Assembly: GCF_036711975.1 (NCBI RefSeq)
Contig: NC_091967.1
Span: 6,448,001-6,512,000, forward strand
Direction of reading: 5' to 3'
DNA length: 64,000 nucleotides
Origin: Onthophagus taurus
Taxonomy: Eukaryota; Arthropoda; Insecta; Coleoptera; Scarabaeidae
The position numbers and the translations under genes were made by a program. Below, piece by piece: positions 767-61,559 of this stretch (within the stretch, counting starts at the first letter, position 1; the number at the start of each line of letters is the position of its first letter). The notes under the pieces were generated by a model. It searched no databases, had not been told where the DNA came from, and saw only the letters and a program-made list of their open reading frames with translations.

Positions 767-2383
767 TATACTTGGTAATTTAACGTGAAAAAAAAAATAA
801 TAAAATTAAAAGTGAGTAACGGAAAGGAAACAATAATCTAAAATGTAACCAATTTTTTTTTCGCTCATGTGTACGCCCAGTAACTGTGTTGTCGATTTCT
901 ATTTATTCAGGGTTTGCTTAAATTTACACACTCGATGGAAATATTTGACATTTAACTGTATTACGCGAACATCTAAGTAAGAAAAAATAGTGTGCAGATT
1001 ATTATCCTAGATTAAACTATTAGAGAAAAATCAAATAAATTTAGATTATGAAATTTTTTATTACGATTTTTTTTTTATTCAAAAGAAATGATACCTTTTA
1101 TAACAAAATTGATCATTATAACATAGTTTGATTCTTCTCTAATATATTTATTCCAATATAAAATTTTATTTTTTCTATCTACTTCTATTTGTAGCAGTAT
1201 TAAACAAAAAACTTAAATTGTTAAGGTGTATATGTTCTTAAAAAAATTTTTTTGGTAATGTACTAATGCCGTTTTAACTATGTTTGGCTTGGATGATTGA
1301 ATCGAGAATTATTCGTTTTACCGGTATAATATCGTATTTGTATATTTTCGTACTTTGTATATATTTCCGAGAGACGATCTATATATATATTTATATATAT
1401 ATAAATATGCGAGTGTAGCAAAAATGAAGAAAAAAAAACGCGTAAAATATTTATAACGTTGCCTTGTATACTACTTTTAGCAGGACAAAAAGTTTTATCT
1501 TTACAGCTTGGATTTTGAACGCCACTATTTTTTTATTGAGCATTATCATTTTTATTTCTGTACAGCCTTTGTAAAAGTGTAAATTATATGATACTAACTA
1601 ACGATAATAATAGTATTTAAATGAACGGTAATATCTCATGCATCATGAATTGTACAAATTGTATATATGCAAGCACGGTGATTGCATCTTAGAAGCTAAA
1701 TTAATTTTTTGAATAATCAGTTAAAGATTTTCCTTGTGTTTGTTAATTTTGTGAATGTTACCCTCCATTTGATAAAAAACCCTGAATATAGGATAAAGCA
1801 ATTATTCAAAAAAGAATAAGTAAACTCTACTTTGCCGAAAAGTGCCATGTCTGGATTACTTTCTTTGTACATACATATTATCACATATGAACAGAGCCTT
1901 ACTAGCAACATAACGTTTTTTTCTGTATTTCCGTAACGTAAATTTATTTCGCAAAGATTGTATTTTTCTTTATTGTCTTTTTTTTTGATTCCATTGTGTT
2001 TAACTTTATTTTCGTCAATGTTGTGAGGAACCATCGTGCAGTACGAGAACACAAATAGATAACTAAATTTACATTAAAGAAAAATCATTACTCATTACAT
2101 TTATTAATTATATCAATAATTTAGGTTTATAAATAAATTATACTATTTTAGATGTAAGATTGATTATTTCCGATTGTAGACACCAAATAAATCATGTTGG
2201 CTTTTTTTACAAATTCTTTAATTCTTTTTTATTTTTAATAATATAATTCTTTCAAAAGTTTTTTTCAGTTTATTTGCATTCTCCATACAATATAAGATCC
2301 TAAAATAATGAAGAAAATGTGATTTATCATTTTCAACTCAACACAACCCAACCTGATACTTTTAGTTGTTATAAATTTTTTTT
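767..2383. other. 3' flank of twins, no further gene seen
   Basis: AT-rich sequence that probably starts with the twins 3' UTR. It holds a short TA-rich simple repeat at about 1378-1405. A 111-codon minus-strand frame at 1717-2052 has no recognisable domain and biased AT-driven composition; I do not call it a gene. Confidence 0.6.
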
Positions 2384-2495
2384 GATGTAACACTTAGAAC
2401 TACAAACATTCGAGTTTAGCGGTGCGTCTCTTAAGACGACAACCCGAATGTTTCTAAGTCTAGTGTTACTTCAATAGAAATATACAACAACCTAG
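2384..2495. repeat. Palindromic repeat family, copy A
   Basis: Inverted arms ACATTCGAGTTTAG and CCCGAATGTTTCTA flank GTCTCTTAAGACGAC. They are followed by the family's right arm (CTAAGTCTAGTGTTACTTC) and the spacer AATAGAAATATACAACAAC. The same modules recur at 4.49, 15.3, 32.45, 36.7/38.2 and 40.1 kb. This copy abuts the 3' end of a minus-strand LINE and looks like one half of a copy split by that insertion. Confidence 0.8.
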
Positions 2496-2530
2496 CGACC
2501 CCTTTGTACGTCCCCATAATTACTGTTCAT

Positions 2531-4485
2531 TCAAGGGTCAGAAAACCAGCCCAATCTTTTCATCAACATTAATATAGAACAGAAAGGTAAATTCCTTATA
2601 TCCGAAATTTGGAGCCATGGTACTCCGAAAATGGATTCCCTTAAGTACGCGAGGTTGGGACAGTCACAAACAATATGACTTACCGTCTCGCCTTCCATTT
2701 CAGACCCTCTACAGAGGGGTGTATTCGCCAACTTCATCTAAAACGTGTGCTACGTAACCTGCAGTATCCGGTCAGGAAGTGGGTAAGAAGCCTCAAGTCA
2801 CTTTTTGATTCTCCCAGAACCTGAGTAGATCTCTTCCGGTCAGGGTAGAGCAGAGTTTTCTTAGCAAAGACATCTGCTGCTGTCCCATTCCATCTGTTGC
2901 AAAAAGCTCGATGGGAGATGGAGTTTATCAGTTTTGATGCTGTATTAACAGCTAGTGGTACAAACGGTTCAGGGAAGATCGGTGACTTGTTAGCCGCCCG
3001 TTTCGCCAGCCTGTCCGCATGATCATGTCCTTTAATTCTGTTGTGTCCTTTTCGCCACTTTAATGTGACGTTGTTGTATACGTTTGCCTCCTCAAGTGAT
3101 TGCCGACAGGACTTCACCAACCGCTAGCATAGCCTGTCTGCTATCAGTGCAGTTTACAACGTTTCTGCACTGCAGAAATGCAGTTAATTCGGCTTTAGCA
3201 GTCGTGCAATATGATCCTAACGAAGTAGAAAGGTGAAGCTGGAGATCCTGCGAGAAAATTCCCGCTCCGGAACCTCCAGCCTTCTTTGATCCATCAATGT
3301 AGATGGTCAGCGTTTTGCCCGAGCTTGAGTTGCTCTGGGGTATCGTTTCAATGCCAAAGTGTGGCTTGCCTAAGAAAGTAAGTGCAATGTAGTCTGTGCG
3401 AGCTTTAAGGAGGGGTTTTTTACAAACAGCCTTACTCCAGAGCTTGCTCCGGACTATTCCCATTTTAACTACCTGCTTTTCAGTTACTGATCGCAATCGA
3501 AGCAATGCCATTACGACCACCTCCCTGATAAAAATATATAGGAGCAGCACGTTCAGCATAGTCTCCATCGCAATCGTAGGTGTAGATCTCATGGCGCCTG
3601 TGATTAGCAGGCAGGCCAGTCGTTGCAGTTGATGCAGCAATTTAGCTTTATATGGATGTTTTAGTGCTAAGCACCAAACTATGGCTCCGTGAGCTACCAT
3701 GGGTCTTATCACAGAAGTGTAGATCCACATTGTAACTTTCGGATTTAGTCCCCAAGTATTCAAAATAGCCCTTCGGCACTGGGTCTTTTTCAATCGTTGC
3801 TTTTTTGTTTTGCAACTAATGTGTGATGTCCAAGTTAGTCCAGTGTTGAAAAAAAACGTTATCCGGAGCAGAATACAGAAAAACTTTTAGTACAAAAGTT
3901 GTAGCAAAATGTGCCCTTAACACAATGGTCTGTAACATTTTTGCTCCCAGATGCATCAATGTGGAGAATTTTTCAAAAATGTGCAAATTACAAGAGTGTT
4001 GAAAAAAACGGTATCCGGAGCAGAATACAGAAAAACTTGTACTACAAAAGTTGTACTAAATTGTGCCCTTAACACAATGGTCTGTAACATTTTTGCTCCT
4101 AGATGCATCAATATGAAGAATTTTTCAAAAATGTGAAAATTACAAGAGTGTTGAAAAAAAGCGGTATCCGGAGCAGAATATAGAAAAACTTTTAGTACAA
4201 AAGTTGTAGCAAATTGTGCCCTTAACACAATGGTCTGTAACATTTTTGCTCCCAGATGCATCAATGTGGAGAATTTTTCAAAAATGTGAAAATTACAAGA
4301 GTGTTGAAAAAAACGGTATCCGGAGCAAAGGTTAATGGATTATTACAGAAATTGGGTGCCGTTAAGTGTCTCATTTTTTTCTGTTTAGTGAAGAGAACAG
4401 TCTCAGTCTTTTTAGGATTGATAGAAAGGGTATGTTCTATGTATCTGCCAGTCCTGGCTGGTGGGAGAGTTGTTGAATTCCACTT
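2531..4485 (-). mobile_element. 5'-truncated LINE with RNase H domain, decayed
   Basis: Fragments of a non-LTR retrotransposon read on the minus strand. From its 5' side (high coordinates): an RT segment with INPKKTETVLFTKQKK (about 4,330-4,440); then the post-RT region LTWTSHI...ILNTWGLNPK and WIYTSVIRPMVAHGAIVW (about 3,640-3,840); an RNase H domain beginning LTIYIDGSKKAGGSGAGI with later TDSRQA and HADRLAKRAA (about 2,990-3,330); and a C-terminal Cys-rich tail CRGSEMEGETVSHIVCDC (about 2,630-2,720). Frames shift several times and the 5' half is missing, so it is dead. RNase H plus the Cys-rich tail suggests the I/R1/LOA-like LINE groups; the exact clade is uncertain. A 153-bp tandem array interrupts it. 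Confidence 0.85.
3843..4326. repeat. 153-bp tandem array inside the LINE
   Basis: Three full copies plus about 26 bp of a fourth, starting at 3843, 3996, 4148 and 4301 (GTGTTGAAAAAAA...). Periods are 153, 152 and 153 bp. Units share GTATCCGGAGCAGAATA, GCCCTTAACACAATGGTC and CCAGATGCATCAATGTGGAG. The array sits where the LINE would encode the short segment between the FTKQKK and LTWTSHI motifs. Because 153 is 51 codons, a minus-strand frame stays open through two units (3956-4264). Confidence 0.92.
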
Positions 4486-59048: not shown

Positions 59049-59056
59049 GTCTGCAG

Positions 59057-59522
59057 CTTTGATTATATATAATATGGATTGAGCTAACTGAATATATCTA
59101 CTAACAAAAATGTGGCTTAAGGTGAATAGACGCAGATGGAAAGCGATAATGTGAAAGTGTAACAAAGATAGACATAAAACGGTACTAAACAGACGGGCGC
59201 ATGCGCACAAAAGTGTCAAATCTGACGTTTATCGTTTTGTTGTGTCACAGCCAGTCACACCGTTATGTTTAAAAATGTATTGTTTCGTGTGCAAGGTTCG
59301 CGATAATACAGTTTCACATCACCTGTAAGTATTATAAATAATAAGGAAATTTTATTTTATTTTTTTTTTTCCTTTGTTCATTTATTAATTTTGTTTTAAA
59401 TTTACCGCCAAAATTAACGCACGCCCATTATATGTCAGTACGCTTCTATGTCTATCTCGGTTCGATCACCTTGCGCAAGCTATCTCTCTCGTTGGCTCAA
59501 TCCATATTATATATAATCAAAG
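59057..59522. mobile_element. 466-bp non-autonomous P-element-like transposon
   Basis: Terminal inverted repeats of 32 bp (59057-59088 and 59491-59522; outer end CTTTGATTATATATAATATG) match at 31 of 32 positions. They are flanked by a perfect 8-bp direct repeat GTCTGCAG (59049-59056 and 59523-59530). P elements make 8-bp GC-rich palindrome-like duplications, have 31-bp inverted repeats and start their transposase with a THAP zinc finger. Inside, an ATG at 59275 opens MYCFVCKVRDNTVSHHL, a THAP start, ending at a GTAAGT donor (59325). A second inverted motif (GATAGACATA) lies subterminally near each end. The element is too short for a transposase, so it is non-autonomous. The near-identical ends and intact duplication suggest recent movement. 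Confidence 0.75.
59275..59324 (+). pseudogene. THAP-like first exon inside the P-like element
   Basis: Seventeen codons with C-x2-C and the V-S-x-H spacing of THAP zinc fingers (CFVCKVRDNTVSHH; family C-x2-C...VSxHxFP), cut off by a consensus GTAAGT donor. No following exon is present in the element, so it cannot make a complete THAP domain. It matches the place of exon 0 in P transposase genes. Confidence 0.55.
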
Positions 59523-59583
59523 GTCTGCAGAAATAAAATATATGGCGTATCAAAGTTATTGTGCAATAATCTATTTACTCCTA

Positions 59584-59729
59584 CACTGTGTTAATTTTAA
59601 TTATCGTACCCGACGTCATCATTGCAAGTATGCAACCAATATCACAGTATTGGTATGCAATACACGATTTGCGATAATGGTTGCATACTTCAATGATGAC
59701 GTCGGGTACGATAATTAATTAACACACTG
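59584..59729. mobile_element. 146-bp palindromic Tc1/mariner-type MITE
   Basis: Almost the whole unit is one hairpin. Arms of about 55 bases carry ATTATCGTACCCGACGTCAT near the left end and ATGACGTCGGGTACGATAAT near the right, with TATGCAACCA/TGGTTGCATA closing the stem. The middle is about 40 bases. Outer ends are CACTGTG and CACACTG flanked by TA on both sides, as expected of Tc1/mariner TA target duplication with CAGTGTG termini. It has no coding capacity. Confidence 0.8.
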
Positions 59730-61559
59730 TAGATGGCGGAGTTTTCGGTTATATTTTTTTGATTTATTTATACATATATTACGAGATAGTTTACAAAATT
59801 GAAATATCTCAATGTTTTATGTTTTGATCTTTTTCAGTACGATACACTCTCCCCATAGAAATTTTACTTCAAAAGAACAAGGGTTCCTAATTACAAAAAA
59901 ATTTTAACAAAGGGTTCGTGGAAGCCCACGCTACCCGTTATAGTTCGCCAAAGTTTAGTAAGCCCCTTTTCATCTCATCGAAAATATTAATCAATAATTT
60001 TTAAATAATTTTGTCTATAATAAAATTTAATTGAATTTAGATGAAAGTTTATACGTTTCTTCCAGTTTATTCGGACGATGCGAATATGGAGTTTGTACCA
60101 TTTTGCTAACCGTGAAACTCGGATTCGTGACTGCCGTCCAGATTTACGGATCTACACCGCAATACAGACAATTGAATTGCCCGGGACGATTGATTTACCT
60201 CGGAGGTGGGCAAACAAACGGATATCCATCGCATGGACGCGCATCCCTAGGGAAGTTCTAGTCTCGCGGGCATTTCGCAACTTAGGAAATCGATTAGGGC
60301 CCGCAATAACTAGACCTGGCAACAAAGGGTGTTATCGCGTCAATTGGAAAATTCCTCGAAGTTCGCCTTTCTCCTAACTTTGATTATGCTTATCGAATTG
60401 TATCATGGCTTTGTATAATATCGAATCACCTTCAATTTATTTTTAAATTCCTTTTGACTTTAAAATCATCATCATAACTCAATCTAATTTGATTGTTTTA
60501 ACTTTTTGATAAGGTCTAGATTTACCTAACGAAAGCAAACATATTTTCAATCTATTTTTATCGCTCGAGTTTCAACAGAAAATAAATTATAGATAAACAC
60601 ATCGAAGAAAAAAAATTACATTTTTCCTCGTTTCCCTTTTTAAACAACAAGCGCCCACTACTTTTCCATTAAAACACAGCCAATTCCAATTTAGCAAATC
60701 CAAACTATTCGAGGTTTTATGGCACATTTCCAAACGACCTCGCTAAATGAAAATAGCTCCTAATAATCAACGTACAAATTTCAATGCAAATTATGACAAA
60801 ATCCAATTTTAACACAACTTATACCTAATTAAATTATGTATTAATGGATGAAGTAATAATAATTGTGTAATTCAGTTATTAGTGAGTAAATGGTTAATAA
60901 CCAATAAGATACGTTTGATTAGGTTAATAAGTCGCATTTCCAATTATCTCCGACCGTGTTATCGACAATGTGGTTAAATTAGCTGAAGAACCTCATCCAA
61001 ACTAACGGGTCCGGTGGTGTTACGCATGCGTGTTTGATCATTGTAATCCATAATTTGCAACATACCGTAGACGGAGAATTTAGACCTTACCGTTAACAGG
61101 TTTCCCATAATCTCCGATTCTCTTATGATTGATGACGATTGATTAATGGAGACGTAGTCATTCCATTAACTCTATTAGAACCTATATTATTACATTCCAT
61201 TAAGGTACCTTTAATGTTAAAAGGATTCGTAATATCATTTCAACTTAAAAATTACTTAGTTTCTTTTGCCGTTGTGATAATTAAAATTCAAATCAGTGAA
61301 GAGAAAGGTGAGAAAAGTACATCTGGGAACGGTTGCGTTGTTTATAAATAAAGGGTAGTAACGTAGCAAAAGTAACGAAATAAACGGGATGTCGTTAGGC
61401 GACAATATCCTCGGGAAAAGCAAAACGATTCCAGAAGAGAGTAAAAAAATTAAGCGACACCAGACCGGAAAGTAGATTAAAAACATATCCCGCTGGCAAA
61501 CAATGCCCTCCTACCCTCATCCTTTTCCTCTTTTGTGGGATTTACTTTGAAGCTCCCTT
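59730..61559. other. Non-coding sequence
   Basis: No gene supported. Two overlapping plus frames at 60,031-60,377 (one with CPGRLIYLGGGQTNGYPSHG) reflect a GC-richer patch without a family match. Confidence 0.4.

Follow-up and report, generated by a model that had tools for sequence, protein, structure and literature searches.

A short non-autonomous element of Onthophagus taurus with the ends and the first coding exon of a P-type transposon

The window analyzed here, a stretch of 64,000 nucleotides from Onthophagus taurus (contig NC_091967.1), contains a short element with inverted termini and a small open exon, which raises the question of what kind of transposon it derives from. The preliminary description of this DNA had claimed 32-bp inverted termini matching at 31 positions, a perfect 8-bp flanking repeat, and an internal ATG exon ending at GTAAGT. 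All of these were confirmed: the termini lie at 59057-59088 and 59491-59522 (31/32), the repeat GTCTGCAG was found at 59049-59056 and 59523-59530, and the exon runs from the ATG at 59275 to 59324, with GTAAGT at 59325-59330. The element spans bases 59057-59522 (466 bp), and its features are as follows.

59049..59056, no strand: left 8-bp target site duplication GTCTGCAG (direct repeat)
59057..59522, + strand: whole non-autonomous element, 466 bp (inverted termini, other copies, duplication)
59057..59088, + strand: left terminal inverted repeat, 32 bp (31/32 with the right terminus; shuffles)
59166..59176, + strand: subterminal inverted repeat AGATAGACATA, left arm (not significant by shuffling)
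59275..59324, + strand: first coding exon of a P-type transposase, THAP start (MYCFVCKVRDNTVSHH plus two bases; long relative)
59325..59339, + strand: splice donor GTAAGT and first bases of intron 1 (common to the long relative L111)
59340..59383, + strand: T-rich centre, marking the internal deletion (extends the match to neither long relative)
59384..59522, + strand: 3' part of the parent transposon (131/131 bases identical to L116 over 59384-59514)
59447..59457, - strand: subterminal inverted repeat, right arm (not significant by shuffling)
59491..59522, - strand: right terminal inverted repeat, 32 bp (31/32 with the left terminus)
59523..59530, no strand: right 8-bp target site duplication GTCTGCAG (direct repeat)

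Among 1000 dinucleotide-preserving shuffles of the element, no terminal match exceeded 17/32, compared with 31/32 in the element itself. The frame opening at the ATG at 59275 reads MYCFVCKVRDNTVSHHL, the final L of which spans the splice site, the exon stopping two bases into the Leu codon. As a caveat on this start, an out-of-frame ATG is located at 59265, 10 bp upstream. The 11-bp subterminal pair AGATAGACATA (59166-59176 / 59447-59457), absent from the preliminary description, was equalled or exceeded in 9 of 100 interior shuffles, and it was dropped as independent proof of P type because it is not significant alone. The element is adjoined by a palindromic repeat (59580-59735) with perfect 28-bp arms (59597-59624 / 59691-59718) and ends reading CTACACTGTG...CACACTGTAG. 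An NDUFS4-like frame, whose top PDB match was the fly structure 8b9z, was also found in the window.

Four DNA searches of the genome (290.8 Mb, 33 contigs), using the whole element and three pieces of it and merging hits at 3 kb, located the family at no fewer than 91 places, which is a lower bound, since each search scored the best 40 of 155-308 candidates. One of these places is the long relative L116 described below. Sixty copies were examined, comprising a first set of 40 (the window copy and 39 others) and a second set of 20. Perfect 8-bp direct repeats were present in 43 of them (28/40 and 15/20), and repeats matching at seven of eight positions in another four, two per set. No 8-bp duplication was detected by either of two scripts in 13 of the 60 copies, several of which were truncated or nested; three of these (L036, L037, and L040) had a common left flank and seem to stem from the duplication of a single site. 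L069 and L071 had both ends, yet no matching 8-bp repeat. The stricter of the scripts kept 44 copies and dropped 16, three of which (L020, L025, and L048) had a perfect repeat under the first script. Among the 44 repeats kept, 40 were perfect, and all 40 differed from one another. The search for further copies with 8-bp duplications that the preliminary description had proposed thus yielded many, with duplications of differing sequence and of the length typical of the P superfamily.

In length, 40 of the 44 kept copies measured 386-478 bp and the other four 875-4098 bp. The family accordingly has the properties of miniature inverted-repeat transposable elements (MITEs), being short, without transposase, and present in many similar copies of near-uniform length. 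Three copies considered as autonomous parents were rejected: L073 is a MITE copy with a retrotransposon inside, L081 carries a foreign transposase frame, and L078 has approximately 1.5 kb inserted near its 3' end. The retrotransposon nested in L073, which we take to be copia-like, has long open frames, and the frame nested in L081 encodes 392 residues of what is presumably a Tc1/mariner-like transposase.

The target preference of P elements is a GTCCGGAC-like motif, with an outer GT....AC and an inner CCGG. In the 44 target sites, compared with AT-rich flanks, the outer GT....AC was enriched (G1 20/44, T2 30/44, A6 29/44, C8 19/44; chi-square 39.6 with 3 df for G1 and 34.4 for C8) and the inner CCGG was not seen, so that at most the outline of the claimed GTCCGGAC-like preference held. 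The notion of palindromic target duplications was discarded, there being no excess of matched pairs (1.14 per site vs. 1.17).

Empty sites were sought by searching the joined flanks of the 44 copies against 358 kb of genome sequence. For 17 copies, a relative spanning the junction agreed better with a single copy of the 8 bp than with two, and for three of these the two-copy version gave no spanning match. Seven (L012, L015, L016, L024, L026, L077, and L079) are paralogous empty sites of 95.8-99.1% identity in which the 8 bp occur unchanged once, the best being L024 against L013 (99.1% over 108 bases). The 10 weaker cases were less clean, as the 8 bp differ in some and the relative of L072 is without half of them. 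Some of the empty-site relatives sit in satellite arrays or in repeats beside the copy itself. For the window copy, no empty site was found with its joined flanks in the 358 kb.

The genome is rich in P-type transposases. The P-type RNase H domain (PF21787) gave at least 150 matches, several of them in long open frames, and the THAP domain at least 133; the same profile searches gave no match in 14 control genomes of unstated kind. By eye, the RNase H matches looked clustered on parts of a few contigs, notably C11 (2-11 Mb), C8 (13-21 Mb), C6, and C3 (15-18 Mb).

Among 20 stretches taken from the upstream side of partial THAP matches, the 5' region of the MITE was present in a single one, L091, which belongs to the locus L111. 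L111 is 87.5% identical to MITE bases 4-283, including the exon MYCFVCKIRDNTVSHHL. When L111 was spliced in silico from GTAAGT to TTTGTAG (GT-AG), the Leu codon was restored, and the product matched Pfam THAP positions 2-86 of 87 (E 9.3e-11); a PDB search with this spliced domain identified THAP2 (8.6e-08) and THAP1 (4.7e-05). Domains encoded downstream in L111 were Tnp_P_element (E 5.7e-21) and the TNP-like RNase H N domain (E 5.3e-24). L111 is not intact, as its RNase H region contains an in-frame stop, with satellite DNA after it. At its right end only 18 bp match the MITE, and its flanks contained no matching 8-bp repeat. The satellite array, which has a repeat unit of about 345 bp, cuts into the transposase gene directly behind the RNase H piece (reverse strand, ~1120-3720), and a stretch like the palindromic repeat at 59580-59735 of the window is also located near the 3' end of L111.

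A protein search with the helix-turn-helix (HTH)/RNase H piece of L111 gave 28 matches among 95 candidates, one of which, L113, is close apart from the query itself (96% over 103 residues). With the second THAP exon piece as query, no other close match was found (three matches among 17 candidates). L113 consists of MITE bases 12-74 followed by the transposase gene without its first two exons, and encodes Tnp_P_element and RNase H matches as well as a GTP-binding-domain match (PF21788, E 1.7e-09). PF12017 and PF21787 are thus present in both L111 and L113, and PF21788 in L113. At L116, 131 bases are identical to MITE bases 328-458. L116 lies 5.6 kb from L113 on the same strand, across a stretch with other repeats, and the two probably represent one element. 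Other sequence has taken the place of its outermost 11 left and 8 right MITE bases, which leaves no duplication to be checked there. A PDB search with one piece of the L113 transposase gave no match up to E 0.01.

These results show that the MITE combines 283 bp from the 5' side and 139 bp from the 3' side of a P-type element, joined by a 44-bp T-rich centre that adjoins neither part in the relatives. The parent transposase has the HTH, RNase H-like, and GTP-binding domains of the P type and, in L111 only, the THAP domain, and the 32-bp termini compare with approximately 27-31 bp in fly and mosquito members of the superfamily. We therefore conclude that the element is, with very high probability, a MITE of the P superfamily that arose by internal deletion from a P-type cut-and-paste transposon; the differing 8-bp duplications and the P-type domains of the long relatives both support the earlier assignment to a non-autonomous member of this superfamily. 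In this account, a parent with a THAP/HTH/RNase H-GTP-binding transposase lost nearly everything from intron 1 to the 3' end, so that only its ends, the subterminal DNA, and the first coding exon of 50 nt remain. The ends may then be recognized by P transposase that related full elements provide in trans, and excision of the MITE and its reinsertion elsewhere with an 8-bp stagger would produce the 8-bp duplication. The duplications and empty sites described above are the products expected of such a process.

The preliminary description had also called the element recently mobile, which agrees with the low divergence of the family: 40 copies shorter than 500 bp differed pairwise by 2.6% on average (range 0 to 6.6%). 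In the same 40 copies, the difference from the majority sequence was 0.71% in the first exon, 0.65% in the 5' non-coding DNA, and 2.4% in the 3' part, and was highest (5.3%) in element bases 269-330, which run from the splice donor across the T-rich centre. The peptide MYCFVCKVRDNTVSHHL was exact in 29 of the 40 copies, and CCT followed directly by GTAAGTAT at the donor was kept in 35. Selection on the mini-exon was considered and found to have left no sign, the exon being no more conserved than the adjoining 5' non-coding DNA. The exon is thus intact owing to the young age of the copies, not to special constraint, and probably has no function of its own.

Other readings of these data were weighed. 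hAT transposons likewise make 8-bp duplications, and their target pattern would also accommodate the T at position 2 and the A at positions 6-7; the element might then be a hAT-type MITE with a coincidentally THAP-like peptide. Against this, the 5' sequence and exon of L111 lead into THAP and P-type transposase domains, the peptide joins the THAP domain through a GT-AG splice, and L113/L116 shows the same link once more. The presence of MITE bases 12-74 beside the same gene in L113 also argues against a later rearrangement having joined the L111 5' DNA to P-type frames. The transposase of the long relatives, which the preliminary description had singled out as decisive, is of P type, with a THAP domain in one of them, and not of hAT type, and a hAT origin, for which we see hardly any chance, was rejected.

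No intact partner was found among the long relatives, L111 and L113/L116 both being broken, which means that the assembly contains none, that one escaped the searches, or that a different P family contributes. That the MITE is moved by the transposase of a different P family in the genome, and not by that of its own parent family, would be in line with there being only two close long relatives, both broken, against at least 150 P-type RNase H matches, and one Anopheles P-MITE is reported to have ends related to two P subfamilies (PMC1562414). On the other side, identity falls to 49% (103 residues) for the relative that follows over most of the query, with shorter pieces reaching 58% over 45 residues, and 10 RNase H loci (L050-L059) were without a match to the MITE ends, as 3.4-kb stretches that need not reach the ends of their own elements. 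We regard this reading as rather unlikely. It could further be supposed that the exon and donor kept by the MITE serve as an exon cassette, a sense copy in an intron starting or altering host transcripts. The 29 exact peptides and 35 intact junctions among 40 copies would fit this idea, as would L076, which lies beside exons that we take to be cadherin-like, though no right end was found for the L076 copy. The near-equal divergence of exon and 5' non-coding DNA (0.71% vs. 0.65%) is, however, as expected without selection in young copies, and such a role seems improbable.

The P element of Drosophila melanogaster is not known to have an early intron in its THAP domain. The parent of the O. taurus MITE differs in having such an intron, which splits this domain, and also in its end sequence. 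In other respects, D. melanogaster P is alike, with 31-bp inverted ends, 8-bp duplications, and internally deleted copies of 0.5-2.8 kb; the excerpts of the source also give it 11-bp subterminal inverted repeats (PMC7776569), whereas shuffling gives no significance to the 11-bp pair of the element described here. Similar in design are the Anopheles gambiae P-MITEs, described in 2006, which, according to parts of that report, have P-derived 5' and 3' sequences, inverted ends, and perfect 8-bp duplications, as well as parents with 27-31 bp inverted ends, THAP domains, and introns; the central region of those P-MITEs, like that of the element here, is unrelated to any P sequence (PMC1562414). The O. 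taurus element differs in genome and family and in having two broken parents, and may differ from the Anopheles MITEs in keeping the 50-nt exon with its donor. Zebrafish P-like elements (THAP9-related) provide internally deleted copies with 8-bp duplications outside insects, with 13-bp inverted ends and 400-bp spacers in the text available, compared with 32-bp ends here (PMC7776569). The claim that such elements are little described outside flies therefore stood in part: Anopheles, host of P-MITEs, is itself a fly (PMC1562414), whereas the excerpts consulted include deleted P-like elements of zebrafish (PMC7776569) and an arthropod DNA transposon survey that covers the P element superfamily (PMC6327564). 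The element is a new family of a known kind, publications on P-derived MITEs with 8-bp duplications going back to 2006 (PMC1562414). What is documented here is a recently expanded P-element MITE family together with its parent lineage, and one genome suffices to trace how the MITE arose and to recognize its target duplications and paralogous empty sites.

The end of the first exon is in phase 2 and falls within the codon that immediately precedes Phe-Pro of the THAP domain, and the intron at this position was looked for in other P-type loci. The script used looked for exons that start with ATG and contain a C-x-C pair, for a GT donor within 30-120 bases in the 20 upstream stretches and within 30-140 bases in the further loci, and for an AG acceptor giving a THAP start; phase and exact place were not required, and introns elsewhere would escape it. 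It gave hits in five of the 20 upstream stretches (L091, L104, L105, L106, and L108, of which L106 and L108 are one family), all in phase 2 and at the same place, and none in the other 15. In 15 further loci, the same intron was found in L050-L053 (one family, with a weak donor) and in L057/L058 (the L106 family); L090 has an unspliced THAP domain, and eight loci gave nothing. In total, five P families, counted by eye, carry a phase-2 intron just before the [F/I/L]P motif, splitting the single codon between His and [F/I/L]P of the THAP domain. Four aligned exon pairs were 23-34% identical to the L091 pair. In a PDB search, the L104 THAP start matched THAP2 at 0.0024 and a P transposase chain only at 0.22.

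Among the titles and abstract openings of the literature searched, no report of this MITE family or of a common THAP intron was found. In human THAP1, exon 1 ends at c.71, which falls in codon 24 in phase 2, according to the part of the source available (PMC4049367). In the THAP1 alignment (2jtg), codon 24 lies directly before Phe-Pro and pairs with Leu17, assuming that the chain numbering is native; intron 1 of THAP1 would thus have the position and phase of the intron in the five P families. We tentatively suggest, at slightly less than even chances, that the phase-2 intron is ancient and homologous to intron 1 of human THAP1, that P transposases and THAP genes share an intron-bearing ancestor, and that the MITEs spread a ready-made THAP start exon with its donor. 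Such a common intron, if tested widely, would bear on whether THAP genes arose from P transposons or the reverse.
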